DNA of 64,000 nt from an uncultured Flavobacteriaceae bacterium (GTDB lineage Bacteria; Bacteroidota; Bacteroidia; Flavobacteriales; Flavobacteriaceae). A model generated the notes under the pieces. It was given only the letters and a program-made list of their open reading frames with translations, was not told the origin of the DNA and did not search any database. The DNA is taken from the NCBI GenBank assembly GCA_937929935.1, contig CALFUL010000003.1, positions 62,001 to 126,000 on the forward strand. The letters are read 5' to 3'. How positions within the stretch are numbered: position 1 is the first letter of the stretch; every line of letters begins with the position of its first letter. Shown in pieces: positions 30,861-63,900 of this stretch. A program made the translations under genes and the position numbers.

Positions 30861-30895
30861 ATTTGATATAATATAATATAAATATACAACATATA

Positions 30896-31076
30896 CATAG
30901 TATATACATAACACATATACATAGTATATACATAACACATATACATAGTATATACATAACACATATACAACATATACATAGTATATACATAACACATATA
31001 CAACATATACATAGTATATACATAACACATATACAACATATACATAGTATTTACACGATACATAGCATGTACACAA
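30896..31076. repeat. Minisatellite of 24- and 33-bp units upstream of mobile mystery protein A
   Basis: Unit starts (CATAG) fall at 30896, 30920, 30944, 30977, 31010 and 31043, giving spacings of 24, 24, 33, 33 and 33, with a decayed end to about 31076. The 24-bp unit reads CATAGTATATACATAACACA then TATA; the 33-bp unit adds CAACATATA. All spacings are multiples of three, so two minus-strand frames stay open through the array. It is only 35 bp from the start codon of the HTH gene. Confidence 0.9.
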
Positions 31077-46666: not shown

Positions 46667-46680
46667 ATAGACTAGCATAG
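46667..46680. promoter_or_regulatory. Partial operator copy in front of the GntR-type regulator gene
   Basis: ATAGACTAG (46667-46675) followed by CATAG, ending 3 bp before the ATG. It matches 8 of 9 bases of the palindrome repeated three times before susC, and the following CATAG matches the start of a next unit. Consistent with autoregulation. Confidence 0.5.
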
Positions 46681-46683
46681 CAT

Positions 46684-47697
46684 ATGACATTGGTAGATTT
46701 GATTATTGGACTAAGAGGTGTAAATACACTCTCTAAGCATGAACAGTTGGTTCATGGGGTTATTCAAGCTATTGATGATAATATTTTAAACGTCGGTGAT
46801 CAATTACCTTCAATCAATCAAATGGTTGCTGAATTAGGGTATGCCCGAAAAACCATAGTAAAGGCCTATGAGGAGCTAAAAGAACGTGGTTTAATAGAAT
46901 CTAAAAAATTAAAAGGTTATTTTGTAATTAGTCAAGAAACCAAAGTAGTTTTAAAGGTTGCCTTGGTATTGTTTTCCTTTCAACGTTTTCAAGAAGATTT
47001 TTATAATAGTTTTAGAAAAGAGTTGGGTAAAAAATATCAAATCGATGTCTTTTTTCATCACAACAATATAGAAGTTTTTACTAGTGTTTTGAATACTATT
47101 CATGGTAAATACGGTATGTATGTGATTGCACCAATTCCTGACCAAAGCCTAAGACCTCTCATTGAAACAATTCCTGCTTCTAAGTTATTGATAATTGATA
47201 GGTTTATTGAACTTGAAAAATCTTACTCCTATATTTCGCAAGAATTTGAACAATCTACTTACAGTAAATTAACTGAGTTACTTCCTAAAATAAAGAAATA
47301 TAAAAAATTCAATTTGTTTTTTAGAAAAGATGCAGATTATCCCGTGGGCATTTTAAAAGCCTTCAATAGAATTTGTGAAGATTTCAATATAGAAGGAAAA
47401 ATACTAAAGAAGTACAAGTCAAAATCCATCAAAAAAAATAACCTCTACTTTTTTGTTAGTGATACCTATCTATGGGATGTCTTAAGAGATGCAAGAAAAA
47501 ATAATTTTGAGGTAGGCCAGGAAATAGGAATTTTATCACACAATGACCACGTGGTAAAAGAAATTGTCTTCAACGGTATAACCACCATTTCAACTGACTT
47601 CGAGGAAATGGCTGTAAGAGCAGCGAATCACATTAAAAAGAAGGGTAAAACCCATTTGTTCATGCCTTCTGAATTAATACTTAGAAATTCACTCTAA
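46684..47697 (+). CDS. GntR-type regulator with LacI-like sugar-sensing domain
   Basis: 337 aa. Residues about 14-80 are a GntR winged helix (LSKHEQLVHGVIQAI, GDQLPSINQMVAELGYARKTIVKAYEELKERG). Residues about 88-335 have the periplasmic-binding-protein/LacI fold (LKVALVLFSFQRFQEDFYNS, IAPIPDQ, IGILSHNDHVVKEIVFNGITTIST). Such hybrids respond to a small sugar and control the genes beside them. It lies divergent-free, directly upstream of susC with 194 bp between, and the palindromes at 47811-47839 are its likely operator. Ligand unknown; galactose, a galactoside or glycerol derivative is plausible from the operon content. Confidence 0.88.
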   Translation: MTLVDLIIGLRGVNTLSKHEQLVHGVIQAIDDNILNVGDQLPSINQMVAELGYARKTIVKAYEELKERGLIESKKLKGYFVISQETKVVLKVALVLFSFQRFQEDFYNSFRKELGKKYQIDVFFHHNNIEVFTSVLNTIHGKYGMYVIAPIPDQSLRPLIETIPASKLLIIDRFIELEKSYSYISQEFEQSTYSKLTELLPKIKKYKKFNLFFRKDADYPVGILKAFNRICEDFNIEGKILKKYKSKSIKKNNLYFFVSDTYLWDVLRDARKNNFEVGQEIGILSHNDHVVKEIVFNGITTISTDFEEMAVRAANHIKKKGKTHLFMPSELILRNSL

Positions 47698-47770
47698 ATA
47701 CACTAACCAAGAATTTTAACGCCAAGCTTTGTTTAATTTTAAGAAATTCATAAAATAAAGGGCGCCAAAT

Positions 47771-47800
47771 TTTGATATTCACAAAATAGATTTATATTTG
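47771..47800 (+). promoter_or_regulatory. Bacteroidetes sigma-A type promoter for the susC operon
   Basis: TTTG at 47771-47774, an 18-bp spacer, and TATATTTG (TAnnTTTG) at 47793-47800. The expected transcript start, about 7 bp on, falls at roughly 47807, leaving an 85-base leader before the susC ATG at 47892. The spacer is one base shorter than the usual 19-21. Confidence 0.7.
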
Positions 47801-47809
47801 TAGTAGTAG

Positions 47810-47839
47810 CATAGACTATCATAGACTATCATAGACTAT
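47810..47839. promoter_or_regulatory. Three phased 9-bp palindromes, probable operator array
   Basis: CATAGACTAT occurs three times in direct succession (47810-47819, 47820-47829, 47830-47839). The 9-mer ATAGACTAT is a perfect palindrome around its central base. The 10-bp spacing places each copy on the same face of the helix. The array starts about 3 bp after the expected transcription start, where a bound repressor would block initiation or early elongation. Confidence 0.75.
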
Positions 47840-47891
47840 TGTACTAAGTTGACTAACTACTTATTTAAACAATTAATTAATAACAACTCTT

Positions 47892-50800
47892 ATGATTAAA
47901 AAAACGCTCAAACAATTTATGGGTTTGATTTTGACACTGTTCAGCGGTGTTGTTTTTGCTCAAGCCACACAGGTTGCGGGAACTGTCTCTGACGGAGACG
48001 GGCCACTACCGGGGGTAAACATTGTAGTGAAAGGAACTACCAATGGTGTTACCACAGATTTTGATGGAAATTATTCCATCGCGAATGTAGAAGCTGAAGA
48101 TGTACTTATTTTTAGTTACATCGGATATGCCTCTCAAGAAATTTCCGTGAACGGAAGATCAACCATCAATGTAACTTTATTACCAGATGCTCAGGCACTG
48201 AATGAAGTGGTCATTGTGGGTTATGGTACTAGTAACAAAAGAGAACTTACGGGCTCTGTTGCTACTATCAAGAAAGATGCAATCGTAAACGTGGTTGCGA
48301 GTAACCCTTCTGCAGCACTTCAAGGTAAGTTAGCTGGTGTGCAGATTGAAACACCAGGTGGTCGCCCCGGTGGACGTTCTAACTTCTTTATCAGAGGTGT
48401 GAACTCGTTGAGTAATGCGGATCCATTATTTATTGTTGACGGTTTATTTGTTGATGATATGGAGAATATTCATGCGCGTGACATTGAAAATATTTCTGTT
48501 TTAAAAGATGCTTCTGCAGCTGCTATTTATGGTGCAAGAGCTGCGAATGGCGTAGTTATCGTGAAAACAAACCACGGTAGAAAAAACGGAGATGTTGAAG
48601 TTACTTTTGATGCTCGTTTAGGGTTTGATTCTGCAAGTAAAAAGTTAGATTATATAAACGGACAACAATACGCAGACTACTTAAACCAAAGATTTACCAA
48701 TGACGGTGAAGCAACTACCGTTGCCTTTAATGGGGTAAATACGGACTGGCAAGAAGAAAACCTTCAAAACGGTATGGTTGAAGACTATGGCTTTTCTGTT
48801 GCCGGTGGAGGAGAAAAAACCTCATACTTTGCTTCAGGTAATTATTTCAACCAAGATGGTATTTTAGTAGGGTCAGGCTTTAAAAGAATTAACTTCAGAA
48901 TCAACACCAGATCTGAATTTGGAAAATTTACGCTAACGCAATCTTTGGGTATTACAGAGCGTAAAATTCAAGAAAACAACTGGTTTGGTTGGGATGGTGT
49001 TTCAGTGCCAACCCTTGCTACTAGCAATAGTACCAATGAAGGTGGTTTTGAAGCGCCTAACCAAGACATTCATGGCCCAGGTGGTGTGAATCAATTCGGA
49101 TTGGCTTCTTTAGAAGATAACTTGATTACCTCAAGAACAGTATACGGTAGTGCTAAACTTGATTATGAATTGGCTGATGGTTTGAAAGCCGCCGTTAATT
49201 TTGGTTTAGATTACACCAATACTAGATTTTTTCAATTCACGCCTACTTACTTTATGAGTGCTACCGATGCAGTGTTCAATGTGAATAATGAAAATGATTT
49301 AACTGATGTTACTCAAAATGATGTGAATGTATTGGTTGAGCCAACACTTTCTTATGATAAAGAATTTGATCAACATAAAATTGGCGTAGTTGGTGGATAT
49401 ACCTTTTTTAAAGAGAATCAGCAAATAGGAGGGCTTTATGGTCAAGGTACGCCGTCAAATTTGATTAGAAATGTGGGTGCTTTACCATCGTCTGAGAATA
49501 ATATTTTAATAGGTGCTGATAACGTTGCAGGTCTCGAGTCTTTCTTCGGTAGAGTAAATTATGGTTACGATGGTAAATATTTATTTTCTGCTACCTTAAG
49601 ACGCGATGCATCTTCAAGATTTGCTGAAGACAACAGAGTAGGGTACTTCCCTTCTTTCTCTGCTGGTTGGAATATTAGTGATGAAGATTTCTGGAATTCA
49701 GAAACAGTAAATTACTTCAAACTTAGAGCTTCTTACGGTGAATTAGGTTCTTACCCTGATGTATTCTACCCAACCTCTGCAGTATTCTTAGCAAACCAAT
49801 CTAACACTTCTTTCGGAGGTGGTTTGGCCAATGGTTTGGCACAAACAACACTTGCTGATCCTGATTTAGTTTGGGAAACCACAAAAACTTTTGACATCGG
49901 ATTTGATATGGCTTTTCTTGACAACAAGATGAATCTTACAGTAGATTATTTCTCAAAAGACATTGAAGATGTTTTAGTAGCAATTAATGTACCTTCAACT
50001 ACAGGTGTTAGTTTACCTGTTACACGTAATGCAGGTACCTTGATTAATCAAGGTTTAGAATTTGAATATGGCTATCGCAAAACTCAGGGCGACTTTACCT
50101 TTAATGCGAACGCTAACTTAGCGTTTACTTTAAAGAGTGAGGCAGGTGATATTCCAAATCCAATCTTAGGTCCTGCAATTGATGAAGATTTAAGAGTCGT
50201 GAATCGTACTTCAACAGGTGAAGCTATTGGCGCATACTACGGTTATGTAGTGGAAGATAAAGTAGATGCTGCAACAGGTGATTTCATTCGTGTTGACCAA
50301 AATGGTGATGGCGTAATTAATGGTGATGATATTGTCAACATTGGTGATCCAGTTCCAGATTTCATATATGGTATTAACTTGAATGGTGCGTATCAGAATT
50401 TTGATTTTGGTTTATCATTTAACGGAGTACAGGGCAATGAAATCTACAATGTAGGTCGTTATTATGCTATTCTTTGGCAAGATGGTGGTAAGTTGACAGA
50501 TGTTTTAAATTCTTGGACGCCGTCAAATACGGATACCAACATACCAAGAGCTTCAATTGCGGATCCAGCGGGTAACAAAGCACCTTCATCATTCTTTGTT
50601 GAAGATGGTTCTTATTTTAGATTACGTAATTTAGACGTAGGGTATAACTTTAAAGATGGAGTTGCTGGTTTAGATTGGTTCAAATCATTACGTCTTTCAT
50701 TAAATATTCAAAATGTATTTACCATTTCTGGGTATAGCGGATACGATCCTGATGTTGCTTCAACTGACGGTGGTAGAGCCAACAGAAATACGGGCGTTGC

Positions 50801-50903
50801 AGGTTTTAGAACTCCTGTAAATCCTTTGTTAAGTAGAGGTGTTGATGCACGTGCTTATCCTAACGCGAGAACAATAATGTTCGGCATTCAAGCTAAATTT
50901 TAA
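47892..50903 (+). CDS. SusC-like TonB-dependent outer-membrane transporter
   Basis: 1003 aa. Signal peptide to about residue 24 (VVFAQ); CarboxypepD_reg-like domain (about 27-110, VAGTVSDGDGPLPGVNIVVKG); plug domain with LQGKLAGVQIETPGGRPGG (about 144-162), FFIRGVNSLSNADPLFIVDG and the AAIYGARAANGVVIVKT stretch; then a large beta-barrel ending in MFGIQAKF with terminal Phe. It imports an oligosaccharide or glycoside across the outer membrane using TonB energy, with the SusD-like protein as lid. First gene of the operon, behind the promoter and operators at 47771-47839. Confidence 0.95.
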   Translation: MIKKTLKQFMGLILTLFSGVVFAQATQVAGTVSDGDGPLPGVNIVVKGTTNGVTTDFDGNYSIANVEAEDVLIFSYIGYASQEISVNGRSTINVTLLPDAQALNEVVIVGYGTSNKRELTGSVATIKKDAIVNVVASNPSAALQGKLAGVQIETPGGRPGGRSNFFIRGVNSLSNADPLFIVDGLFVDDMENIHARDIENISVLKDASAAAIYGARAANGVVIVKTNHGRKNGDVEVTFDARLGFDSASKKLDYINGQQYADYLNQRFTNDGEATTVAFNGVNTDWQEENLQNGMVEDYGFSVAGGGEKTSYFASGNYFNQDGILVGSGFKRINFRINTRSEFGKFTLTQSLGITERKIQENNWFGWDGVSVPTLATSNSTNEGGFEAPNQDIHGPGGVNQFGLASLEDNLITSRTVYGSAKLDYELADGLKAAVNFGLDYTNTRFFQFTPTYFMSATDAVFNVNNENDLTDVTQNDVNVLVEPTLSYDKEFDQHKIGVVGGYTFFKENQQIGGLYGQGTPSNLIRNVGALPSSENNILIGADNVAGLESFFGRVNYGYDGKYLFSATLRRDASSRFAEDNRVGYFPSFSAGWNISDEDFWNSETVNYFKLRASYGELGSYPDVFYPTSAVFLANQSNTSFGGGLANGLAQTTLADPDLVWETTKTFDIGFDMAFLDNKMNLTVDYFSKDIEDVLVAINVPSTTGVSLPVTRNAGTLINQGLEFEYGYRKTQGDFTFNANANLAFTLKSEAGDIPNPILGPAIDEDLRVVNRTSTGEAIGAYYGYVVEDKVDAATGDFIRVDQNGDGVINGDDIVNIGDPVPDFIYGINLNGAYQNFDFGLSFNGVQGNEIYNVGRYYAILWQDGGKLTDVLNSWTPSNTDTNIPRASIADPAGNKAPSSFFVEDGSYFRLRNLDVGYNFKDGVAGLDWFKSLRLSLNIQNVFTISGYSGYDPDVASTDGGRANRNTGVAGFRTPVNPLLSRGVDARAYPNARTIMFGIQAKF

Positions 50904-50920
50904 AAATAATAACATAAAAA

Positions 50921-52480
50921 ATGAAAAAGATGTTGAAATCAATAACAAGGTTGATGCTGTTCTCTGCCCTAGTACTTTTCTCAGGGTGTTCAGATGAACT
51001 ATTAGATCAACAAAACAATAATGCGACCTCCACTGCGAATTTTGGTTCTTCAGTGGCAGAAGTTGAGGCTGCCGTTAACGGTGCTTTCCACCCCATTACA
51101 GATACCTTCTTTTGGGGAAGAATCATACACACTGGTGCGATATTACGTTCAGATGAATTTAATGTATTTCCGTTTGGTGGTAATACAGCGATGTCAACTT
51201 TTCAAGGAGAACCTGGTTCTGCTCGATGGGCAACTGAACCATGGCAACAAGCGTATAAGTCTATCGCAAGATGTAACAATATTATCATCAACGTGAATGA
51301 AGAAGGAATTCCTGATACTGCTGCACGCAACAGTTTAGTGGGTCAAGCATATTTCTTGAGAGCTTTTGATTATTGGTACTTGGTTAACCTTTACGGTAAT
51401 GTGCCTTTGATTGTAGATTTACCTGATTTAGATAATGTTTTGGTCAATCAAGCAGAACCATCTGCAGTTTGGAGCCAAATTATTTCAGATCTTGAAATGG
51501 CCGAAACACTGTTGCCTGATAGTTGGGATGGTGACAATGCAGGTAGACCAACTTCAGGTGCTGCTACAGCTCTTAAAGGTAAAAGCTACTTGTATACTAA
51601 GCAATACAGTGAAGCGATTACTGCTTTTCAAAGTTTGGTAGGTAGATATAGCTTATTGCCAGCTGAGAATTATGCTGATAATTTTACCACAACAAATGAA
51701 AATAACATGGAGTCTGTTTTTGAACTTCAGTTCTTAGGTCAGTCTAGTTTTGCTTGGGGTACTGATATACCAGGTACAGGTACAATGGGTAATTTTCATA
51801 TTGATTATGCGCCACCTTCAAAGTCTCCAGATAGAAGTCACTTAGTTAACCCATGGTTAAAAGATTTGTATGAATCTAATGGTGATGAGGTAAGAAGAAA
51901 TGAAACCTTAGCTTATGATTACCCTGGGTCTCTAGGTTATGGCGGTACAGATTTTTTAACTGATTTTGATGATGATATTACGGTAGCTAATGATGCTGGT
52001 TTAGAACCAATTTTTTCTAAAAAATATGCAGGTTTAGATGTAGGTACTAGAGAGCAAGTTGATTTCTTAGGTACCAATGTGGGTAACAACTGGCGAGTGA
52101 TTAGATACGCTGATGTACTATTAATGTTAGCTGAGGCCTTGAATGAAAGCGGTCAAACTGCACAAGCAGGACCTTTTGTTGATGAGGTTCGTGAAAGAGT
52201 TGGTCTATCAACAATTACTGATTTAAATTTAGACCAAGCGGCTATGCGTCAAGCGATTATTGATGAGCGTGCTATGGAGTTAGCTGGTGAAGGTCACAGA
52301 TTTTTTGACCTAGTTAGATGGGGTCTCGCAGAGGCATATTTAGGTGCTAATTCATTACACGGTACCAGCCCAAAATCATTGAGTGGTGGTGTTTTTCAGA
52401 GCAGCAAGCACGAATTGGTTTGGATTCCTGGTTCTGAAATTGATGCAAACCCCAACTTAACTCAAAATCAGGGGTATTAA
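50921..52480 (+). CDS. SusD/RagB-like surface lipoprotein
   Basis: 519 aa. Lipobox at Cys23 (LFSGC). SusD fold: TPR helices with YFLRAFDYWYLVNLYGNVPLI (about 144-164), ALKGKSYLYTKQYSEAI, and the C-terminal RYADVLLMLAEALNESG ... IIDERAMELAGEGHRFFDLVRWG (about 393-460) that defines the family. Binds the glycan or glycoside and closes over the SusC barrel. Starts 17 bp after susC and is followed by a strong hairpin at 52509-52538. Confidence 0.95.
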   Translation: MKKMLKSITRLMLFSALVLFSGCSDELLDQQNNNATSTANFGSSVAEVEAAVNGAFHPITDTFFWGRIIHTGAILRSDEFNVFPFGGNTAMSTFQGEPGSARWATEPWQQAYKSIARCNNIIINVNEEGIPDTAARNSLVGQAYFLRAFDYWYLVNLYGNVPLIVDLPDLDNVLVNQAEPSAVWSQIISDLEMAETLLPDSWDGDNAGRPTSGAATALKGKSYLYTKQYSEAITAFQSLVGRYSLLPAENYADNFTTTNENNMESVFELQFLGQSSFAWGTDIPGTGTMGNFHIDYAPPSKSPDRSHLVNPWLKDLYESNGDEVRRNETLAYDYPGSLGYGGTDFLTDFDDDITVANDAGLEPIFSKKYAGLDVGTREQVDFLGTNVGNNWRVIRYADVLLMLAEALNESGQTAQAGPFVDEVRERVGLSTITDLNLDQAAMRQAIIDERAMELAGEGHRFFDLVRWGLAEAYLGANSLHGTSPKSLSGGVFQSSKHELVWIPGSEIDANPNLTQNQGY

Positions 52481-52508
52481 AATTTTGTTGAGTTAGTTTG
52501 TTAGTTTT

Positions 52509-52539
52509 AAGCCAAGTATTTATTAAAATACTTGGCTTT
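52509..52539 (+). terminator. Strong hairpin between susD and the next gene
   Basis: AAGCCAAGTATTT (52509-52521) and AAATACTTGGCTT (52526-52538) are perfect 13-base complements around a 4-base loop, followed by TCATT. It is 28 bp after the susD stop and 27 bp before the VCBS gene. It probably acts as a partial terminator or RNA-stability element that keeps susCD mRNA high relative to downstream genes. Confidence 0.7.
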
Positions 52540-52565
52540 CATTATAAAGTGTTTCATCTGAACGT

Positions 52566-55500
52566 ATGATTAGATTAAGTTCTCTTTTCTTGCTCTTTAC
52601 TTTAATTAGTTGTGACTCTGATTCTGAGAATCATTTATTTGTTCAGCGTTCAGCTGATAGCACCCATATCAATTTCGCCAATACCATTACAGAGTCTGAT
52701 GTAATTAACGTACTCGATTTTCAATACTGTTATAATGGCGGTGGAGTAGGTATAGCTGATTTCAATAATGACCAATTACCTGATTTGGTTTTTACAGGAA
52801 ATCAAGTATCCTCAAAAATTTATTTGAATGAGGGCGAGTTGGTTTTTACAGATATTTCAGAGAAAGCTAATTTTTTTACTCAGTCTTGGGTTACAGGTGT
52901 TTCGATAGTTGATATCAATACAGATGGGTGGGATGATATTTATTTGAATGTGGGCGGAAGTGATTGTAACAATGATTGTCCTAATTTATTATTTGTTCAT
53001 CAAGGTTTAGATGAAAATGGTATTCCTGAGTTCAAAGAGATGGCGAAAGATTATGGTTTAGATGATGCCAATTATGCGCAACAGGCGGTATTTTTTGATT
53101 ATGATTTAGATGGCGATTTAGATGTGTATATCGCGCACAATGGTAATGTTAAGTTTGACAAGAATACCCCGATGCCAAAAAGGTATTATCCGGATCATTT
53201 ATCAGATTATGTATTGAGAAATGATACAATCGAAGGAAAAAACCATCCTGTTTTTACCAATGTTTCAGATAGTATAAATATAAATCAAAAAGGTTTTGGT
53301 TTAGGTGTCGGAATCAATGATTTCAATGACGATAATCGTCCTGATGTGTATGTGTCTAATGATTTTATTACCGATGATTTAATGTATATCAACACGGTTT
53401 CATCCGATGGTAAAACTCCCAATTTCATTGAATCAAGCAAAGAATATTTGAGTCATGAAACCTATAATGCCATGGGGGTTGACATTGCTGATATTAACAA
53501 TGATGCAATACCTGATATTTTGGTGCTTGATATGTTACCAAAACAATATAAAAGACAAAAACTGATGCTCGGTAGCATGAATTATGATAAATACCTGTTG
53601 TCACAACAAAATGATTATGCAACACAATATATGCACAATACCTTACAATTGGGGAATGGTTTTATTGGCGATCAACCCATTAAAGCCAGTGAGGTGGCCT
53701 TTCAAAAGGGAATTTCAAGTACTGATTGGAGCTGGGCGCCGCTGATGGTTGATTTTGATAATGATGGTCTAAAAGATATTTATATAACCAACGGATATGT
53801 AAAAGATATTACCGATTTAGATTTCATCAATTATTCTAATGAAAATAGACTTTTTGGCACCCCAGAAGCTAAAACCAAGAGACTGAAAGAAAGTATAGCA
53901 AAAATGCCAGGCATTTATCTAACCAATTTCTTTTACAAACAAACTGCCGATGAAAATTTTGAAGATTTTTCAAATATTTGGACATCCGAAAATGCATCCT
54001 TTTCAAATGGTGCAGCCTATACAGATTTAGATTTAGATGGTGATCTTGATTTAGTGGTCAATAATATAAACGATAAGGCCTTTGTACTCGAGAATCGTAC
54101 ATCCCTAAAAAACAACAATAATTATTTGAGAATAAAATTACTGGGTGGTAAAAAGAACGCTAAAGCAATTGGTGCTAAAATTAGTGTCTATACTTCGGGC
54201 GAAGTACAAACGCACTATCAATCAGTAATAAGAGGGTATTTATCTTCAGTAGAACCTGTGGTGCATTTTGGTCTTGCTCAAGATACCCTCATTGATTCGT
54301 TAAAAGTAGTGTGGCCCAATGAAAAAATTACCACAAAATATAAGGTCAAAACCAATCAGCTATTGAACCTTTCTCAATCAGACGCATTTGATAAGAAGAA
54401 CTCAAAACTCTTGCATAAAACTACATTTTCTGAGGCTGATGATGTGGTCAACTTTACTCAAAATGATAAGTTTATCAATGAATATACTTCTCAAAGTTTG
54501 TTGTCAAGGCAATTTACCTCAAAGAGTACATGTATTGCTGCAGCCAATATTGATGGTATTGTAGGCGATGAATTGTTTGTGGGTGGCGCAGCCGGAACCG
54601 CCAGTAGTATTTGGTTTCAAAACCAAAGCGGAAATTATGAGCCCAAACAATATCTTGATGCTAACTATGATGATACGCAGGCTGTTTTTGTTGATTTGGA
54701 TGCAGATGAAGATTTAGATCTTGTGGTTGCCAGCGGTGGCAATAGATTTGATAATGACTCTGAACTCTATCAAAATAGGATCTACCTCAATAACGGTAAA
54801 GGTCATTTTGAAAAAAACAGGAGTATGTTACCTTCAGTTTTGCAAAGCACCAAAAGTATCGCTGCTGCTGATTTTGACAAAGACGGCGACATAGATTTAT
54901 TTGCAGGATCGAGAATCATACCGAAAAATTATCCGTTACAACCGAATAGTACTTTTTTGATTAACAATTCAGGTACATTTGAACCAGCGTTTGAAGCCTT
55001 GTTTTCTAAATTAGGAATGGTTAACCATGCCGTTTGGGCAGATATTGATAATGATGATTGGAAAGATTTAATTGTGGTAGGCGAATTTATGCAAATCACA
55101 TCCTTTAAAAATAATAAGGGTCGTTTAGAACCCTTGTCTTTAAATTGGGTTGATGAAAATAATCAAACAATCAATACCTCAGGTTGGTGGAATCATATAG
55201 TACCTGCCGATTTTGATAATGATGGTGATCTAGATTTTATCATAGCCAATCAAGGCACAAATGGTTTTATGAAGCCCACACAAGATAAACCTATTTATGT
55301 GTATCAAAAGGACTATGATGAGAACGGAAGTGTTGACCCTGTATTGGCCAAATATTTTGAAACTGAAAAGGGTACTGAACTTTTACCCGTGCAAACACGC
55401 GATGATATTATGAAGCAGCTGCCAAGTTTAAAAAATAAATACACGACCTATGAGTCATTTGCAGTAACAGATTTTGACAAACTTTTGCAAATAGAAGATT

Positions 55501-55901
55501 GGTCACAAGAAACTTTAAAGGCTACCACATTTGAAAGCTGCTATGCCGAGAATTTAGGTAATGGTACTTTTAAATTAATTCCTTTACCAAAAGAATGTCA
55601 GGTAGCACCCATTAATGCTGTGCTCTTAGACGATTTTAATGAAGATGGTCTTTTAGACTTTTTAGCCGTTGGTAATGATTTTACGGCGGAGACAAATTAT
55701 GGTAGACATGACGCCTTAAACGGACTCATGGTATTACAAAAAGATGGCTTTTTTGAAGCAGTGCCAACTAGTAATTCAGGCTTTTATGTGCCAGGGCAAT
55801 CGAACCATTTGATTGACTTTACTGATGCTAAAGGACAAACTTATATAATGGCAACTCAGCTCAATGATGAAGCTCAAGTATTTTTAAAAAAACAGAATTA
55901 G
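52566..55901 (+). CDS. Lipoprotein with VCBS/FG-GAP repeats and ASPIC/UnbV domain
   Basis: 1111 aa. Lipobox at Cys16 (LISC). At least ten FG-GAP/VCBS-type calcium-binding blades are visible as D-x-[DN]-x-D-G or D-[FIL]-[ND]-N-D motifs (ADFNNDQLPDLVF, DINTDGWDDIYLN, FDYDLDGDLDVYI, DFDKDGDIDLFAG, DFDNDGDLDFIIA, DFNEDGLLDFLAV). A central ASPIC/UnbV segment (about 520-610, NNYLRIKLLGGKKNAKAIGAKI) splits two propellers. The protein is probably a surface-exposed, calcium-rich propeller that assists SusCD; no catalytic residues are known for this group. Comparable genes follow susD in many marine Bacteroidetes loci. Confidence 0.87.
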   Translation: MIRLSSLFLLFTLISCDSDSENHLFVQRSADSTHINFANTITESDVINVLDFQYCYNGGGVGIADFNNDQLPDLVFTGNQVSSKIYLNEGELVFTDISEKANFFTQSWVTGVSIVDINTDGWDDIYLNVGGSDCNNDCPNLLFVHQGLDENGIPEFKEMAKDYGLDDANYAQQAVFFDYDLDGDLDVYIAHNGNVKFDKNTPMPKRYYPDHLSDYVLRNDTIEGKNHPVFTNVSDSININQKGFGLGVGINDFNDDNRPDVYVSNDFITDDLMYINTVSSDGKTPNFIESSKEYLSHETYNAMGVDIADINNDAIPDILVLDMLPKQYKRQKLMLGSMNYDKYLLSQQNDYATQYMHNTLQLGNGFIGDQPIKASEVAFQKGISSTDWSWAPLMVDFDNDGLKDIYITNGYVKDITDLDFINYSNENRLFGTPEAKTKRLKESIAKMPGIYLTNFFYKQTADENFEDFSNIWTSENASFSNGAAYTDLDLDGDLDLVVNNINDKAFVLENRTSLKNNNNYLRIKLLGGKKNAKAIGAKISVYTSGEVQTHYQSVIRGYLSSVEPVVHFGLAQDTLIDSLKVVWPNEKITTKYKVKTNQLLNLSQSDAFDKKNSKLLHKTTFSEADDVVNFTQNDKFINEYTSQSLLSRQFTSKSTCIAAANIDGIVGDELFVGGAAGTASSIWFQNQSGNYEPKQYLDANYDDTQAVFVDLDADEDLDLVVASGGNRFDNDSELYQNRIYLNNGKGHFEKNRSMLPSVLQSTKSIAAADFDKDGDIDLFAGSRIIPKNYPLQPNSTFLINNSGTFEPAFEALFSKLGMVNHAVWADIDNDDWKDLIVVGEFMQITSFKNNKGRLEPLSLNWVDENNQTINTSGWWNHIVPADFDNDGDLDFIIANQGTNGFMKPTQDKPIYVYQKDYDENGSVDPVLAKYFETEKGTELLPVQTRDDIMKQLPSLKNKYTTYESFAVTDFDKLLQIEDWSQETLKATTFESCYAENLGNGTFKLIPLPKECQVAPINAVLLDDFNEDGLLDFLAVGNDFTAETNYGRHDALNGLMVLQKDGFFEAVPTSNSGFYVPGQSNHLIDFTDAKGQTYIMATQLNDEAQVFLKKQN

Positions 55902-55906
55902 AACTA

Positions 55907-57682
55907 ATGATAAATGTCGATTTAGCTCAAGCTACGATAGAAGCGATGGAAATAATTGGAGATGATACAAAGGTAATTTCATCCATAGAAAAAAGTCATG
56001 CAGAAGCAGGCCTAGAAATATATGATTTCAAAGTTGAATGTAAAGAAAAGCATTTTCCGAAGCCCATTACCATTAAGTGGAAAGTACCATGCTTAAATGT
56101 AAAAGGCGTTTGGAAGCCTACAACTGACTTTTCAAAACGCATTCAAGCTGATTGGGAATTAGAACATATGGAGTCAAGAATTTCAATTGATTCGCCGGTA
56201 ATTAGCCTATTTGGTAACAATGACGAAAACGTCATCACATTTGCTTGCTCAAATGCAATCAACAAATTGCAGATGAATGCATTGATAAGAGAAGAAGATA
56301 ATTATTTCTACTGCCATATTACTTTCTTTTCTGAAGAGGAACAACCTCTTGAAAAATTTGAGGCACAAATTAGAATAGATACCCGAAAGATTCGTTTTTC
56401 ATTGGCTTTAAATGGGGTGTCTGATTGGTGGGCATCAATGCCAAATCTTACACCTGCTAAGGTTCCTGAAATTGCGAAAGCACCTTTGTATTCTACTTGG
56501 TACCAATTTCATCAAGACCTTGATTTAGACTTGCTTTTACAAGAATGTAAATTGGCTCAAGAATTGGGTTATAAAGCCATTATTATTGATGATGGTTGGC
56601 AAACTTTTGACACCAACAGAGGTTATGACTATACAGGCGATTGGCAACCTGACCGTATACCTGATATGTTAGGTTATATCGAAAAAATTCAAAAAATTGG
56701 TTTAAAAGCAGCCCTTTGGTATTCTGTTCCGTTTTGCGGAAAAAAGTCAAAGGCATACAACAATTTTAAAGGTAAATTTTTGACCGAAAATCATAGATGG
56801 GCACCTGTTTTTGACCCTAGGTATCCTGACGTGCGTGAGTATTTGATTTCTATTTACACCAAAGCAGTAAAAGAATGGAATCTTGACGGTTTGAAATTAG
56901 ATTTTATTGATGATTTTAAAATTTATGAAGACACGCCCTTAGGTATTGCAAATGGTCGTGATTACGCCTCTGTGAATGATGCGGTAGATCGTTTGATGAC
57001 AGATGTTATGACATCATTACATGCAATCAACCCTGATATTTTTATTGAATTCAGACAAAAATATGTGGGTCCGGCGATGCGTAAATATGGTAACATGTTA
57101 AGAGCATTCGATTGTCCGGGCGATGCTACAATGAATAGAATTCGCATCGCAGATATCAGAATGCTTGCGGGTCATACGGCGGTTCATGCTGATATGATTA
57201 CGTGGCATGACACTGAAACGGTTGAGGTGGCCGCTTTGCAATTGATCAATACTTTATTTGGTGTGCCTCAGATTTCAGTTTTTTTAACTCAAATTCCTGA
57301 AGATCACCTAGAAATGGTTAAATTCTACACCTGCTATTGGAATAAGAATAAGACTTTAATTACTGAGGGAGATTTCACGGCCTTCAATCCGCTAGCAAAT
57401 TATCCAATTCAAAAAGTCAGCAATCATGAGAAATTATTGGTGGGCTTGCATGATAATCAAGTAGTTCAACTTGATAAAACTTTTGAGAGTATTGATATCA
57501 TCAATGCTAAAATCAGTGATAATATCGCCGTTAGAACAACTTCAAATGTAGGTAATTATAACTTCACAGTTTTTAATTGTCAAGGAAAAACAGTTGATAC
57601 CGGACAACTGAATTTGAAAAAAGGAATTCACGAAATAATTGTTCCGCCAAGTGGCCTAGTACAATTGACCTTAAATACATAA
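55907..57682 (+). CDS. GH36-type alpha-galactosidase, cytoplasmic
   Basis: 591 aa, no signal peptide, so it acts in the cytoplasm. N-terminal beta-sandwich (1-180), then a GH-D clan TIM barrel: YKAIIIDDGWQTF (222-234), WNLDGLKLDFIDDF (324-337) with the nucleophile Asp332 in the KLD motif, and RAFDCPGDATMNRIR (399-413), where Asp402 aligns with the SDxTD acid/base of GH36. A C-terminal beta domain follows from about 500. Shorter than lactobacillal GH36 (about 730 aa), nearer to the raffinose-synthase/Sip1-like branch. It releases galactose from alpha-galactosides. It starts 5 bp after the VCBS gene and ends 4 bp before the symporter. Confidence 0.87.
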   Translation: MINVDLAQATIEAMEIIGDDTKVISSIEKSHAEAGLEIYDFKVECKEKHFPKPITIKWKVPCLNVKGVWKPTTDFSKRIQADWELEHMESRISIDSPVISLFGNNDENVITFACSNAINKLQMNALIREEDNYFYCHITFFSEEEQPLEKFEAQIRIDTRKIRFSLALNGVSDWWASMPNLTPAKVPEIAKAPLYSTWYQFHQDLDLDLLLQECKLAQELGYKAIIIDDGWQTFDTNRGYDYTGDWQPDRIPDMLGYIEKIQKIGLKAALWYSVPFCGKKSKAYNNFKGKFLTENHRWAPVFDPRYPDVREYLISIYTKAVKEWNLDGLKLDFIDDFKIYEDTPLGIANGRDYASVNDAVDRLMTDVMTSLHAINPDIFIEFRQKYVGPAMRKYGNMLRAFDCPGDATMNRIRIADIRMLAGHTAVHADMITWHDTETVEVAALQLINTLFGVPQISVFLTQIPEDHLEMVKFYTCYWNKNKTLITEGDFTAFNPLANYPIQKVSNHEKLLVGLHDNQVVQLDKTFESIDIINAKISDNIAVRTTSNVGNYNFTVFNCQGKTVDTGQLNLKKGIHEIIVPPSGLVQLTLNT

Positions 57683-57686
57683 TATT

Positions 57687-59342
57687 ATGGATACACTATC
57701 AATTTTATCTTTTCTCGGCTTCACCTTATTGGTGGGTTTTATTGCCTGGTACGCCACTAGAAAAACAGATGAAAAATCTGCTGATGGCTATTACTTAGGC
57801 GGTAGAAGTTTAGGCGCAATTACCGTTGGGGGTTCGCTATTGTTGACCAACCTTTCGGCGGAGCAGATTGTTGGCTTAAATGGCCAGTCTTTTGCGCAAG
57901 GTGTTTTGGTTATGGCTTGGGAGACTCTCGCAGCCGTCGCATTAGTATTTACAGCCATTTATCTCTTGCCAAAATATATGCGTTCGGGTATTACAACAAT
58001 TCCTGAATTTATTGAAGAACGATTTGATGCCACTACAAAATCTATTTTATCTATCTTATTTTTAGTAGCTTTTGGTGTTGTACTATTACCTACTATTCTA
58101 TATTCAGGTTCCTTGGCATTTAGCACCATGTTTGACTTACCTAAAGTCTTGGATATGCCCCAATCAAGTGTTATTTGGATTTGTGTTTGGTCAATCGGAA
58201 TCATTGGTTCTATTTATGCCATTTTTGGGGGATTAAAAGCGGTAGCGGTATCTGATTTAGTTAATGCAATAGGACTCTTGATAGGAGGTTTAATGATTCC
58301 GTTTTTTGGATTATTGTTGATCGGAGACGGAAGTATATCAAATGGTTTAGATGTACTTTGGACGGATAACCCTGAGAAATTTAATGTCAAAGGAGAGATT
58401 GATTCGTACTTACCATTCAGCACTATTTTTACGGGAATGATGATTGCACAAATGTATTATTGGGGAACCAACCAATCTATTTTGCAACGTGTATTTGGTG
58501 CCAAAAGTTTGGCTGAGGGTCAAAAGGGAATGATTCTAGCAGGCTTTGTAAAGTTCTTAATTCCTATTGTGGTGGTACTTCCGGGTATTATTGCGTGGCA
58601 TGTTTTTGGTGCTGATTTAGAATCTCAAGATAGCGCTTACCCTGCACTGGTAAAAAAAGTATTGCCAGGTGCATTTTTAGGTTTCTTTGCTGCAGCCTTA
58701 TTTGGTGCGGTTTTGAGTTCTTTCAATAGTTTACTCAATAGTAGTTCTACCCTTTTTGGAGTTGATTTATTTAGACAATTTTTCAACAAACAAGCTTCAG
58801 AGCAAAAAATGGTAAAAGCAGGTAAAATTTTTGGTTTGTTCTTGGCAGTGATTTCTATGTCAATAGCACCCTTTATTGCAAATGCGCCCGATGGTGTCTT
58901 CAACTATATTCAAGAATCTTTAGGTAGTTTAAGTGTTCCTATCTTAGCGGTAGTCACTGTGGGTATGTTGACAAAAAATGTACCCGCAGTTGCCGCTAAA
59001 TTGGTTTTAGTGGTAGGGGTTTTGATGTATTTGGTTAGTCAGTTTGTGATGAGTCCGTATTTTGTTGATACCGCCCTTGCGGAGGCAGCAGCCAACGGAA
59101 TTACCAATGCAAAAGAATTGGGTATTATTAAAGCAAAAGCCTACCCTCATTTTCTTCATGTTATGGGTATTTTGTTTGTCATTAACGTTGGATTTATGCT
59201 GATTATGGGTAAGGTAACTCCGAACAAAAATGAGTACAATCCTAAGGTTACTGAAGAAATAGATGTTACCCCTTGGAAGCATGCCAAATTAGTTGGTCTG
59301 GTTATTACCATCTTGGTGTTGAGCACCTATTTAATTTTTTAG
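57687..59342 (+). CDS. Sodium:solute symporter (SSS family)
   Basis: 551 aa with about 14 membrane helices. SSS signature: ADGYYLGGRSLGAITVGGSLLLTNLSAEQIVGLNG (about 32-66) and YAIFGGLKAVAVSDLVNAIGLLIGG (about 177-201), the SGLT-like sugar-cotransporter region; YYWGTNQSILQRVFGAKSL (about 259-277) is also SGLT-like. It brings a sugar or sugar-glycoside into the cytoplasm with sodium. Since the alpha-galactosidase next to it lacks a signal peptide, the transported molecule may be the intact galactoside. Tightly packed between GH36 and glpD. Confidence 0.92.
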   Translation: MDTLSILSFLGFTLLVGFIAWYATRKTDEKSADGYYLGGRSLGAITVGGSLLLTNLSAEQIVGLNGQSFAQGVLVMAWETLAAVALVFTAIYLLPKYMRSGITTIPEFIEERFDATTKSILSILFLVAFGVVLLPTILYSGSLAFSTMFDLPKVLDMPQSSVIWICVWSIGIIGSIYAIFGGLKAVAVSDLVNAIGLLIGGLMIPFFGLLLIGDGSISNGLDVLWTDNPEKFNVKGEIDSYLPFSTIFTGMMIAQMYYWGTNQSILQRVFGAKSLAEGQKGMILAGFVKFLIPIVVVLPGIIAWHVFGADLESQDSAYPALVKKVLPGAFLGFFAAALFGAVLSSFNSLLNSSSTLFGVDLFRQFFNKQASEQKMVKAGKIFGLFLAVISMSIAPFIANAPDGVFNYIQESLGSLSVPILAVVTVGMLTKNVPAVAAKLVLVVGVLMYLVSQFVMSPYFVDTALAEAAANGITNAKELGIIKAKAYPHFLHVMGILFVINVGFMLIMGKVTPNKNEYNPKVTEEIDVTPWKHAKLVGLVITILVLSTYLIF

Positions 59343-59353
59343 GTAAAGTATTA

Positions 59354-61027
59354 ATGAAAGAGAACGTAAATTTTACCATTTTAGAACGAGATAAACATCT
59401 CAATACCCTTCAAACTGAAAAGTTTGATTTGGCGGTTATTGGGGGTGGCGTTACTGGTGCCGGAATAGCATTAGATGCAGCAGCCCGTGGATTACATGTT
59501 TGTTTGATTGAAAAAAATGATTTCGCTTCAGGTACCAGTAATAAATCAACCAAACTTATTCATGGGGGGTTACGATACCTCAAGCAATTTGAAATAGGCT
59601 TGGTTCGAGAGTCAGGTTCTGAGCGAGCTATAGTACATAAATTGGCACCGCATTTGGTTATACCTGAAAAAATGTTGCTTCCATTAGTAGAAGGCGGTAC
59701 CTATGGTAAAATGATGACGTCTATCGGACTCAAAGTCTATGATTTTTTGGCCGATGTAAAAGGAGAAGATCAACGTAAAATGTTAGATAAAGCTGAGACC
59801 CTTGAAAAAGAGCCTTTACTTGATGAAGACACTGTTCTTGGCGGTGGTTATTACGCAGAGTACAGAACAGATGATGCGCGACTAACCATTGAAATCTTGA
59901 AAAAAGCAGCATCCTACGGGGCAACAATAGTCAATTATTGTGAAATGCAATCTTTTGATTACAATGAGAAGTCCAAAATCAAAAACCTTAATTGTATAGA
60001 CCACAATACAGGTACATCCTTTAAAATAAAAGCTAGGTCTTACGTTTCAGCTGCAGGCCCGTGGGTAGATACTTTACGGACGAAAGACAGCTCAATGAAT
60101 CATAAATACTTACACTTAACCAAGGGTGTTCATATTGTTTTTCCCTTAGAAAAATTACCTGTAAAACAACCCATTTATTTTGATGTAGCTGATGGTAGAA
60201 TGATTTTTGCAATTCCGAGAGGTAGAGCTACCTATGTGGGTACTACTGATACCAATTATTCTGGTAATTTAGATCGGGTGGTGGCTACCAAAGAAGACGC
60301 TACTTATATTTTGAATGCCATTAATGCCACTTTTCCAGAGGTCAACCTTAAAATTGATGATATTGAATCAAATTGGGCAGGTTTACGGCCTTTGATTCAC
60401 GAAGAAGATAAAGACCCTTCAGAATTGTCTAGAAAAGATGAGATTTTCATTTCTGAAAGCGGCCTCATTTCTATTGCAGGGGGTAAGCTAACTGGGTATC
60501 GTAGAATGGCGATTCGCGTCATTGAGGCGGTTTTAGATAAATTAAAAAAGAAGCATAAGCTAAATTTAAAAAAGTCTGAAACCGAAAAAATTCCTTTAGT
60601 TACGCCGCCTTTAAATGATTTTAAAAGTGTAAAAGCCTATCAAAATAAACTGCGCAAAATACTTCAAGAATTAGGTATTTCAGATGCATATCACGCTTGG
60701 TATTTGTGTACAAACTATGGTAAACAAGCCGAGTCAATTATTGAAAAGTCAAAATCTTTTGATAATATTGATATTGTAGAAAGACTAATTCGAGCAGAAC
60801 TTTGGCATAGCGTTCATTATGAAATGACCAATAATATGGCCGACTTTTTCGTGCGTCGTACGGGTCGTTTATATTTTGACGTGCCAAGTGTTTTAAAATA
60901 TAAAAACATCATTCTTGATGATTGCATTGACTATTTTAAATGGGATGAAGAAAGAATAAATGATGAAAAGAGCACTATGAATATGCTCATTGAAGATGCT
61001 ACTAATTTCTACGATAAAGAACTTTAA
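59354..61027 (+). CDS. glpD: FAD-dependent glycerol-3-phosphate dehydrogenase
   Basis: 557 aa from ATG 59354, 11 bp after the symporter stop; an in-frame ATG at 59273 is inside the symporter gene. FAD-binding GGGVTGAG (30-37) and GTSNKSTKLIHGGLRYLKQF (about 61-80), then ADGRMIFAIPRGRATYVGTTD (about 278-298), WAGLRPL and ISIAGGKLTGYRRMA, all GlpD/DAO family motifs; a DAO_C helical domain closes the chain. It oxidises sn-glycerol 3-phosphate to dihydroxyacetone phosphate and passes electrons to quinone at the inner membrane. Its place in a galactoside operon suggests the aglycone is glycerol. A glycerol kinase is not in this window. Confidence 0.93.
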   Translation: MKENVNFTILERDKHLNTLQTEKFDLAVIGGGVTGAGIALDAAARGLHVCLIEKNDFASGTSNKSTKLIHGGLRYLKQFEIGLVRESGSERAIVHKLAPHLVIPEKMLLPLVEGGTYGKMMTSIGLKVYDFLADVKGEDQRKMLDKAETLEKEPLLDEDTVLGGGYYAEYRTDDARLTIEILKKAASYGATIVNYCEMQSFDYNEKSKIKNLNCIDHNTGTSFKIKARSYVSAAGPWVDTLRTKDSSMNHKYLHLTKGVHIVFPLEKLPVKQPIYFDVADGRMIFAIPRGRATYVGTTDTNYSGNLDRVVATKEDATYILNAINATFPEVNLKIDDIESNWAGLRPLIHEEDKDPSELSRKDEIFISESGLISIAGGKLTGYRRMAIRVIEAVLDKLKKKHKLNLKKSETEKIPLVTPPLNDFKSVKAYQNKLRKILQELGISDAYHAWYLCTNYGKQAESIIEKSKSFDNIDIVERLIRAELWHSVHYEMTNNMADFFVRRTGRLYFDVPSVLKYKNIILDDCIDYFKWDEERINDEKSTMNMLIEDATNFYDKEL

Positions 61028-61105
61028 TAATAACGACTCTTTTATTCATCAAGTTGAAACGCTAATTTTCGTCTTGAAGTAAGCGAACATATTAATTTTA
61101 TACTA

Positions 61106-62230
61106 TTGGAACATCAAAATTTAGAATATGAGGTGATTATTGACTCGCCCGGCAGAATTAATCTTATTGGCGAGCATATTGATTACAATGGCGGTTATGT
61201 GCTACCCGCAGCAATTGACAAAAAAATTACGTTAAAGTTTAAAAAGAACAACAGTAATTTCTGTAAAATTCATTCAAGCACTTTTAAAAGTAGTTTTGAA
61301 ATTGACCTTGATAATCTTGAAAGAAGTGAGACCGAGTGGCAAAATTATATTCTTGGGGTAGTTTATCATATTGATATAATTAAACCAGGTGTAATCAAAG
61401 GTTTTGATTGTACCATCGAGACCAAATTACCTTTAGGCTCTGGCGTTAGTTCTTCCGCAGCACTTGAATGTGGTATTGCAAAAGGTGTGAATGAACTGTT
61501 TGAAATAGGTTTGTCTGACTTACAATTAATTACATTATCTAGAGATGCTGAGCATACTTTTGTGGGTACTAAGTGTGGTATTATGGATCAATTTGCAGTG
61601 GTCAAAGGTAAAAAAGACCATTTGCTATTGCTCAATTGTGATACCTTATCGCATGACTTGATAAAAGCAGAATTTTCTCCGTATATAATTCTTTTACTCA
61701 ACACCAATGTTTCTCATAATTTGGCAAGTAGTGAATATAATGTGAGAAGAGATGAGTGTCAAACGGCTCTAGAAGCGATACAATTGAAGTATCCTGAGGT
61801 TAAGAATTTGACTGATGTAAAACCAAAAGTGATTAAGGAATTTAAAAAAGTCCTACCCAAAAAAATCTATAACCGTGCTTTATTTGTATCCAAAGAAAAT
61901 CGAAGAACACTGAAAGCGGTAAAATTCTTAAAAAATAAGAATTTAAAGAAATTTGGTAAATGCATGTATGGCTCACATAAAGGGCTAAAAAATCAATATG
62001 AAGTTAGTTGTAAAGAGTTAGACTTTTTAGTAAATATCACTAAAGATTTACCCTATGTTTTAGGTTCAAGAATGATGGGTGGTGGCTTTGGGGGTTGTAC
62101 CATTAATATTGTTCATCAAGACCATGTTGAAGATTTGATTCAAAGTAGTTCTTGGGCTTACAAGAAAGAGTTTGATATTGACTTAACGCCAATAGTAACC
62201 ACCATTAGCGATGGGGTTTCAAGAATATAA
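61106..62230 (+). CDS. galK: Galactokinase
   Basis: 374 aa. GHMP kinase: SPGRINLIGEHIDYNGG (14-30) with Arg17, ATP-binding PLGSGVSSSAALECG (109-123), GTKCGIMDQFA (154-164) with catalytic Asp161, and GSRMMGGGFGGCTI near 334-347. It phosphorylates galactose at C1 as entry to the Leloir pathway. The only plausible start is TTG at 61106: no in-frame ATG or GTG lies before the first motif, and the upstream frame closes at 61055. The N-terminus is thus short compared with many GalK. 78 bp after glpD. galT and galE are not in the window. Confidence 0.9.
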   Translation: MEHQNLEYEVIIDSPGRINLIGEHIDYNGGYVLPAAIDKKITLKFKKNNSNFCKIHSSTFKSSFEIDLDNLERSETEWQNYILGVVYHIDIIKPGVIKGFDCTIETKLPLGSGVSSSAALECGIAKGVNELFEIGLSDLQLITLSRDAEHTFVGTKCGIMDQFAVVKGKKDHLLLLNCDTLSHDLIKAEFSPYIILLLNTNVSHNLASSEYNVRRDECQTALEAIQLKYPEVKNLTDVKPKVIKEFKKVLPKKIYNRALFVSKENRRTLKAVKFLKNKNLKKFGKCMYGSHKGLKNQYEVSCKELDFLVNITKDLPYVLGSRMMGGGFGGCTINIVHQDHVEDLIQSSSWAYKKEFDIDLTPIVTTISDGVSRI

Positions 62231-62244
62231 ACAGTTTGAACAGA

Positions 62245-63900
62245 ATGTGTAGAACGTGGTGGAAAGAAAGTGTAATCTATCAGATTTATCCGAGGTCTTT
62301 TTTTGATACTACCGGCAATGGTATGGGCGACCTTATGGGCATTCAAAAAAAGGTAGCATACATCAAAAATTTAGGGGTTGATATGGTGTGGCTTTGTCCT
62401 GTATATGAATCTCCTAATGATGATAATGGTTATGATATTAGTGATTATACCAAAATCATGGATGAGTTTGGCGGAGATGCCGCTTTTGACGAATTACTCC
62501 GAGAACTTCATGCTAACGGATTAAAATTAATGATGGATGTGGTGTTCAATCATTCTTCAGATGAACATCATTGGTTTCAAGAATCGCGAAAATCAAAAGA
62601 TAATAAGTACCGTGATTATTACTTCTGGAAAGAGGGAAAAGAAGGTGGTCCACCGAATAACTGGACTTCCTTTTTTGGCGGAAATGTTTGGAAGTATGAC
62701 GATTTGACCAAAGAGTATTACTTGCATTTATTCACTGAAAAACAACCCGACCTCAATTGGGAGAACCCGAAGGTGCGAGAAGAATTAAAAAATGTGCTTG
62801 AATTTTGGTTAAAGAAAGGGGTGGATGGTTTTCGAATGGATGTAATTTCATTGATTTCAAAACAACTGCATTTTCCTGATGCTGAGTCTCAAGATTTTAA
62901 AGAAATCATTACAAGTTATTATAGCAACGGCCCTAGAATTCATGAGTTTTTAAAGGAGCTAAATCATGATGTACTCAGTAAGTACGATATTGTAACAGTA
63001 GGCGAGGGGCCAGGTATTGATATCAAAAACGGACCTTTATATGTGGAAGAAGATCGAGATGAGCTGAACATGGTTTTTCATTTTGATCATATGTTCATTG
63101 ATGCCGGACCGGGCGGAAAGTATGACCCCTTAGATTTTGATTTTGTGCGCTTTAAGCAAGTATTCAATGACTGGGATGAAAAACTACATCAAAAAGGTTG
63201 GGGCAGTATCTTTTTAGGCAACCATGATTTTTCAAGAATGGTATCTCGTTTTGGTAATGATACCATTTACAGAACAGAGTCCGCCAAACTTTTGGCAATG
63301 CTTTTATTGACCCTACGTGGTACGGTTTACATATATCAAGGCGATGAAATAGGTATGACCAATGTAGCCTTTCCAACTATTGAAGATTATAATGATGTTG
63401 AGACTTTAAATAACTGGAAAGAAGCTAAGGCAAAGGGCGAAGACATGACTGAATTCTTGAAAATTGTTCATAGGCAAAGTAGAGACAACGCCCGAACACC
63501 TATGCAATGGAATAATACGCTAAATGCAGGTTTTTCTATAGGTACACCTTGGTTGAAATTGAATAAGAATTATGAAGAAATTAATGTTGAAAATGCTTTA
63601 AACGATGAAACCTCAATTCTAAATTTTTATAAAGAAATGATTGCGTTCAGAAAACATAATTTATGTTTGGTATATGGCGATTATGAGTGTCTTGATGTTG
63701 AAAACAAACAAGTTTTTGCCTACCGTAGGTATGATGCAAATGATGCGTTTTTAATCCTTTTAAACTTTAGTGATAATTCTATTTCTTGGCATCATGAATT
63801 TGTTGTGAAAGACTATACACTTGTAAAATCAAATCTCAAAAATTCAGCATCGAATTTTGATTTAAAACCTTGGCAGGCTAAATTATTTAGAAAGATTTAA
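62245..63900 (+). CDS. GH13 alpha-glucosidase, oligo-1,6-glucosidase type, cytoplasmic
   Basis: 551 aa from ATG 62245 (a TTG at 62236 is also in frame). No signal peptide, so cytoplasmic. Complete GH13 motif set: DVVFNH (98-103), GFRMDVIS (195-202) with nucleophile Asp199, TVGEG (251-255) with acid/base Glu254, FLGNHD (323-328) with Asp328, and region V QPDLN (167-171), typical of oligo-1,6-glucosidase/dextran glucosidase. Val200 directly after the nucleophile is the residue linked in characterised enzymes to alpha-1,6 preference. It would release glucose from short alpha-glucosides such as isomaltose, or from other small alpha-glucosides. Last gene of the operon in view. Confidence 0.92.
   Translation: MCRTWWKESVIYQIYPRSFFDTTGNGMGDLMGIQKKVAYIKNLGVDMVWLCPVYESPNDDNGYDISDYTKIMDEFGGDAAFDELLRELHANGLKLMMDVVFNHSSDEHHWFQESRKSKDNKYRDYYFWKEGKEGGPPNNWTSFFGGNVWKYDDLTKEYYLHLFTEKQPDLNWENPKVREELKNVLEFWLKKGVDGFRMDVISLISKQLHFPDAESQDFKEIITSYYSNGPRIHEFLKELNHDVLSKYDIVTVGEGPGIDIKNGPLYVEEDRDELNMVFHFDHMFIDAGPGGKYDPLDFDFVRFKQVFNDWDEKLHQKGWGSIFLGNHDFSRMVSRFGNDTIYRTESAKLLAMLLLTLRGTVYIYQGDEIGMTNVAFPTIEDYNDVETLNNWKEAKAKGEDMTEFLKIVHRQSRDNARTPMQWNNTLNAGFSIGTPWLKLNKNYEEINVENALNDETSILNFYKEMIAFRKHNLCLVYGDYECLDVENKQVFAYRRYDANDAFLILLNFSDNSISWHHEFVVKDYTLVKSNLKNSASNFDLKPWQAKLFRKI

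Follow-up and report, generated by a model that had tools for sequence, protein, structure and literature searches.

Red algae are said to make galactosylglycerols (floridoside, isofloridoside) as their main product of photosynthesis (PMC8509150, in excerpt), and the enzymes listed for floridoside metabolism in these algae include an α-galactosidase, GALT, GALE and glycerol kinase; the excerpt concerned describes the alga's own metabolism and no uptake locus (PMC8703398). Among Bacteroidota, Parabacteroides goldsteinii is reported to grow better with floridoside, and section 24 of that study names ten glycoside hydrolase (GH) families, GH36 not among them, and describes no locus (PMC13377823). 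The main text of a paper on North Sea flavobacterial loci mentions neither GH36 nor floridoside (PMC6298971), and no bacterial floridoside locus was recognised in the open-access literature, covered mostly as titles and abstract openings, so that an earlier report, for instance in the subscription papers outside this scope, is possible. Here we describe nine genes at one end of a 64,000-nucleotide stretch (the window; positions 62,001 to 126,000 of contig CALFUL010000003.1, our C3) of an uncultured Flavobacteriaceae genome (GCA_937929935.1, our G000; 3.10 Mb, 40 contigs, estimated 85% complete). We infer substrate, transport route, regulation and all enzyme activities from computed gene content, conservation, a common operator-like site and gene lineages, and consider it likely, at roughly three chances in four, that this is a repressor-controlled catabolic locus for small α-galactosylglycerols, floridoside and/or isofloridoside, between which sequence data do not distinguish.

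In the proposed pathway the heteroside would cross the outer membrane via SusCD and the inner membrane via a sodium symporter, and a cytoplasmic GH36 enzyme would split it into galactose and glycerol. GalK would phosphorylate the galactose, a housekeeping GlpK the glycerol, and the GlpD of the locus would oxidise the resulting product to dihydroxyacetone phosphate. This assignment is favoured because the galactose and glycerol genes match the breakdown products of an α-galactosylglycerol. The window locus was compared with 62 other, distinct loci (37 and 33 fetched, minus 8 duplicates of the 70), with synteny read outside the short pieces L002-L031; of the 37 matches of one search one is the window itself, and the flanks of genomes G326, G066 and G169 were not fetched. 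In 46 loci the GH36 protein shares 50% identity or more with that of the window (‘related’), and in 16 it falls below this (‘distant’). Related loci carry SusC in 35 cases, an orthologue of the symporter in 36 and of the regulator in 30, and at least one of glpD, glpK, galK, galT and galE lies near the GH36 gene in 27 of the 46 (glpD 19, glpK 17, galK 10, galT 5, galE 2). The first-pass annotation had proposed a small α-galactoside with a glycerol aglycone, a claim that gains support from this recurrence, and had named as its critical point the presence of glpD in syntenic loci; glpD indeed recurs near GH36, and 17 of the 19 loci that bear it also hold glpK. None of the five genes was found in any distant locus, and where at least 8 kb was available on each side a glp or gal gene is present in 24/37 related loci versus 0/10 distant ones. 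This contrast is softened by two of four loci (L189-L192) fetched after the main table and reported separately: among the distant ones L190 carries GalT-GalE-GalK next to GH36 and a symporter, L192 GalK and GalT, and L191 neither, and none has glp genes. The fourth, L189 (61% identical), has neither glp nor gal genes and, by eye, a gpsA upstream of its regulator. Genes for both products stand together in the window (GlpD and GalK), and glpD occurs with galK or galE also in L047, L049, L054 and L086, the order GH36-symporter-GlpD-GalK of the window being repeated, with distant proteins, in L054, a Saprospiraceae record. The identities of GlpK, GalT, GalE, GpsA and an acetyltransferase considered below were checked on one example each, the acetyltransferase scoring below model cut-offs.

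The loci are further united by an operator-like site, GTAGCATAGACTATCATAG, which in the window lies between the regulator gene and susC. It recurs with at most five mismatches in 29 of 30 stretches downstream of a regulator gene, the window included, the 19-bp reference having been taken from these same stretches and the scoring matrix built on 29 of their sites. When whole loci are scanned, 38 of the 46 related ones show it ahead of, or at the beginning of, either susC or the GH36 gene, against none of 21 control loci; outside the matrix set it is present in 9/17 loci, and exactly in L189, versus 1/85 Markov sequences at equal threshold. The site is common to loci of the glycerol kind and of the galactose kind, which is the best sign that both answer to one inducer. 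In the window it follows TATATTTG, which resembles what we take to be the -7 consensus of Bacteroidota promoters. That position suits repression: the GntR/LacI-type regulator would occupy the site just past the susC promoter and release it on ligand binding. An 18-bp pattern of the site has a single exact match in the whole genome, at the window site, and further genomic matches are near chance (41 with no more than three mismatches, versus 29 when the pattern is reversed); a two-mismatch site at C3:154490 was rejected as a regulon member, its neighbouring genes having no evident link. A three-mismatch match at 46673-46690 overlaps the regulator start and might point to self-regulation, yet such matches are near chance level.

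The remaining pathway genes were sought elsewhere in the genome. The first-pass annotation had suggested looking just downstream for glpK, galT and galE, and in the next 20 kb none was recognised by eye among listed open reading frames (ORFs) of at least 100 residues; glpK was found farther off, on contig C11 (734 bits). The GlpD domain DAO_C and GalK (TIGR00131) each have a single genomic match, at this locus, although a single GalK could also come from missing sequence. In two genomes of the same genus, G050 and G270, glpD sits between glpK and gpsA (L109, L117), whereas in G000 (L108) just 17 nt separate glpK from the adjoining, confirmed gpsA and the housekeeping glpD is missing. The most closely related loci, L032 and L058, have both glpK and glpD. 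Since the housekeeping glpD is gone from beside glpK, while L032 and L058 carry both genes within the locus, the window genome seems to combine the two sources, keeping glpK from the housekeeping set and glpD from the locus. The DAO_C match beside GH36 is likewise the sole one in 10 of the 29 genomes having any.

Gene lineages were followed in three trees (GH36, GlpD, GalK), which are quick searches with Shimodaira-Hasegawa-like approximate likelihood-ratio (SH-aLRT) support only. The GH36 tree places the loci of at least 50% identity in one group (support 99; L066, with no usable ORF, is absent). On this tree glpD and galK each require at least six changes and have therefore been gained or lost repeatedly. 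The window GlpD falls inside a group of 15 GH36-linked GlpDs (95), apart from 18 housekeeping GlpDs (99); four locus GlpDs (L034, L036, L039, L045) are closer to the housekeeping set and that of L054 is a long branch. L034, a glp-type locus, belongs to a cultured relative, Maribacter vaceletii. The window GalK groups with its counterpart in the L050 locus (99) rather than with those of its own genus (L111, L112), while the locus GalKs of L043, L085 and L087 lie among or beside housekeeping ones. In six loci (L041, L044, L047, L049, L059, L086) GlpK and then GlpD are fused in a single ORF of 1055-1061 codons. A bolder picture would be a dedicated algal α-galactosylglycerol regulon across marine Flavobacteriaceae that repeatedly took over glycerol catabolism, placing in some species the sole GlpD found in the genome, sometimes fused to its kinase, under a heteroside operator, with the osmolyte maybe the main glycerol source for these bacteria and, here, a GH13 enzyme widening the range to α-glucosylglycerol; we regard this as speculative and would sooner expect it to fail than to hold.

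The window GH36 protein (591 residues) is divergent, its Melibiase match of 28.6 bits standing just above the cut-off of 27. The domain was nevertheless matched (E ≤ 0.001) in all 25 members of alignment A1, made up of the window plus a hand-picked 24 of the 37 loci first fetched, leaving out L052 and L066 (stop codon) and L068 (short). Against the PDB the profile of these 25 ranks GH36 α-galactosidases first (3mi6, 1.5e-11), and also matches GH31 α-galactosidases of the wider kin, more weakly at the top (8j53, 1.1e-9). In common with GH36 α-galactosidases the DDGW, KxD nucleophile and acid/base Asp regions align, D332 with the KxD Asp and D402 with the SDxTD region, and neither residue varies among the 25 sequences; we take these Asp residues of the GH36 templates to be nucleophile and acid/base, respectively. 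The protein is a predicted α-galactosidase in which D332 and D402 occupy the catalytic positions. It differs from that family in its divergence and in having no match to the N-terminal domain model PF16875, which has no match in the window genome, the control matching in just 1/14 genomes. Because a GH36 enzyme is described that forms isofloridoside by reverse hydrolysis, using galactose and glycerol, the galactosylglycerol linkage is within reach of this family (PMC8509150, in excerpt). Galactolipid head groups, also raised as a substrate, are disfavoured, as no β-galactosidase was recognised at the locus.

The symporter has as its best solved relative the sodium/galactose symporter vSGLT (2xq2), with which it shares the family and, by positions counted by hand, six of nine galactose contacts (N64, Q69, E88, Y263, K294, Q428), differing from it at the other three (S91A, N142L, N260Q). 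The contact list is the one we assume for vSGLT, and the Ala at 294 of the template is presumably the K294A mutant.

The last gene encodes a GH13 enzyme whose closest structures are oligo-1,6-glucosidases (9u7v, 682 bits; 1uok, 649 bits) and whose motif DGFRMDVIS has Val after the nucleophile, which we take to mark the oligo-1,6-glucosidase type; it looks like a sucrose or α-1,6-glucosidase. An enzyme of this type would suit a raffinose- or melibiose-type locus, in which GH36 takes galactose off raffinose and GH13 hydrolyses the leftover sucrose. The GH13 sub-group (58-68% identity) occurs in 16 other genomes of 396, next to a symporter 70-74% identical to that of the window in three of these loci and a more distant one (31-32%) in six; L148 groups it with the symporter, a PfkB-type sugar kinase and GH32, and L149 has an additional protein slightly below the sucrose phosphorylase model cut-off. 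These neighbourhoods favour sucrose or a similar small α-glucoside as the predicted GH13 substrate. As a reading of the whole locus, however, raffinose is improbable: the GH13 gene is absent from the other 62 GH36 loci, glpD, recurrent in the related loci, would be without a role, and no fructokinase was recognised by eye at the window locus. Alternatively, in an extension of the galactosylglycerol proposal, GH36 would serve α-galactosylglycerol and GH13 α-glucosylglycerol, both freeing glycerol. GH13 is indeed the final gene of a glycerol-linked locus, and in L148 and L152 its relative, with a symporter 70-73% identical to that of the window, and a glpK-like gene are arranged tail to tail. 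Yet glpK is at just 2/16 GH13 loci, on the opposite strand and, in L148, partial on the contig, and the GH32 and PfkB genes found in L148 and (by sequence clustering) in L155 point to sucrose or fructans, which leaves such a dual locus rather unlikely.

Several observations weigh against a galactosylglycerol substrate. The loci are related by descent, so the counts above are not independent, and 19 of the 46 related loci have none of the five glp and gal genes nearby. Where both kinds co-occur they are not always close, galK being 7.1 kb from GH36 in L086 and galE more than 5 kb off in L047 and L049. The operator-like site is absent from 8/46 related loci (three of which, L046, L051 and L054, have less than 3.5 kb upstream) and present in two of the 16 distant ones, L093 and L095. 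The symporter type is not specific to GH36 loci because it stands beside this GH13 type, without GH36, in L148, L149 and L152, and the GH13 enzyme itself is left unexplained by such a substrate. No galT was found in the window genome, at its estimated completeness, by protein and TIGR00209 searches; galE was not searched, and a UDPGP search for a GalT substitute matched no genome, controls included, and is thus uninformative. Across G000 and relatives, GalK is present in 35/36 genomes and a GalT match absent from 14/36, of which the nine tested gave zero TIGR00209 matches; in such genomes galactose 1-phosphate may be processed by something other than GalT, for which the nucleotidyltransferases that are reported to be induced on arabinogalactan in Maribacter (PMC11036162) would be first candidates to consider. 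The loci without glp or gal genes would also fit the view that these genes serve free glycerol and galactose while GH36 acts on another α-galactoside, e.g. galactolipid-derived oligosaccharides or galactinol, as would the fact that GlpD and GalK here are the only copies found and hence would serve general metabolism too. That glp and gal genes are linked time and again to one GH36 type and one site, and that the same cassette holds a GlpK-GlpD fusion, speaks against it, and we give this separation of nutrients little chance. As observations apart, in L093 and L095 the site precedes a different susC, with GH36 only 46-47% identical, possibly a second branch of the regulon, and the GalK of G050 adjoins a sulfatase and a protein with a sulfatase-modifying (FGE) domain (L111:9660-13563), with similar GalK neighbours seen by eye in several other genomes.

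The co-oriented nine-gene run described in the first-pass annotation was borne out (Table 1), the families being as named there and each ORF having a stop codon and zero inner stops. A gap of 194 nt separates regulator and susC, and those from susC onwards are 17, 85, 5, 4, 11, 78 and 14 nt. The GlpD start was corrected, most likely to the ATG at 59354 rather than 59273, and the GH13 start to an ATG. The regulator has a GntR helix-turn-helix (39.7 bits) and a weakly matched Peripla_BP_3 sensor (24.9 bits, below the cut-off of 26.5).

Table 1. Features of the candidate galactosylglycerol locus (window positions)
Feature	Position	Strand	Evidence and remarks
GntR-type regulator, LacI-like sensor domain weakly matched	46684..47697	+	Pfam GntR 3.7e-10, Peripla_BP_3 2.4e-05; predicted repressor
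Possible Bacteroidota promoter -7 element TATATTTG	47793..47800	+	Read from sequence, just upstream of operator-like site
Operator-like site GTAGCATAGACTATCATAG	47806..47824	+	19 bp, score 33.1; overlapping partial copies to 47844
SusC/RagA TonB-dependent outer-membrane transporter	47892..50903	+	TIGR04056 786 bits
SusD-like surface lipoprotein (SusD_RagB)	50921..52480	+	PF07980 6.9e-39; lipobox-like SGC by eye
FG-GAP/UnbV_ASPIC protein, probable lipoprotein	52566..55901	+	PF13517 1.6e-54, PF07593 8.1e-20; SC by eye
GH36-like α-galactosidase, predicted cytoplasmic	55907..57682	+	Melibiase 28.6 bits
vSGLT-type sodium/solute symporter (SSF)	57687..59342	+	PF00474 8.8e-50; 2xq2 6.5e-61
GlpD, FAD glycerol-3-phosphate dehydrogenase, GH36-linked lineage	59354..61027	+	DAO and DAO_C
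Galactokinase GalK	61106..62230	+	TIGR00131 320 bits, above cut-off; TTG start
GH13 α-glucosidase, oligo-1,6-glucosidase/sucrose type	62245..63900	+	Nearest 9u7v, 1uok

Elsewhere, what by eye resembles another SusC/SusD/VCBS cluster, including a Kelch-like protein, follows just downstream of the window (L001:3482-14470), after a few minus-strand genes. Two proteins resembling GH16 glucanases, again by eye only, are encoded at 14080-17051, and a minus-strand ORF of long repeated YVYVVYVLCI-like units at 30402-31076 is probably a low-complexity DNA repeat.

Set beside known systems, the locus is a predicted variant, with good comparative support, of the SusCD-type loci of Bacteroidota. Like the polysaccharide utilisation loci it has adjacent susC and susD, a surface lipoprotein, glycoside hydrolases and a local regulator; it differs from them in its GntR/LacI-type regulator, its symporter, and kinase and dehydrogenase genes suiting a small substrate. 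The earlier claim that it lacks a secreted hydrolase stands as far as inspection by eye goes: no secreted polysaccharide-degrading enzyme was seen at the locus from the GH36 and GH13 N-termini, and no signal sequence is visible on these or on GlpD and GalK, no predictor having been run. If correct, our interpretation would mean a SusCD system whose target is much smaller than a polysaccharide, and the named gene set together with the operator-like site makes it testable which bacteria consume red-algal galactosylglycerol carbon. The E. coli lac operon was reportedly viewed by Egel in 1979 as a galactosylglycerol system. Both systems combine a galactoside importer with a galactosidase, and 11 of the 46 relatives of the window locus also have, at most 430 nt from GH36 (L032:11783-12343 and ten others), a maltose/galactoside O-acetyltransferase-type gene recalling lacA. 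In contrast to lac, the system described here would act on an α and not a β linkage, with unrelated proteins and with uptake through SusCD.

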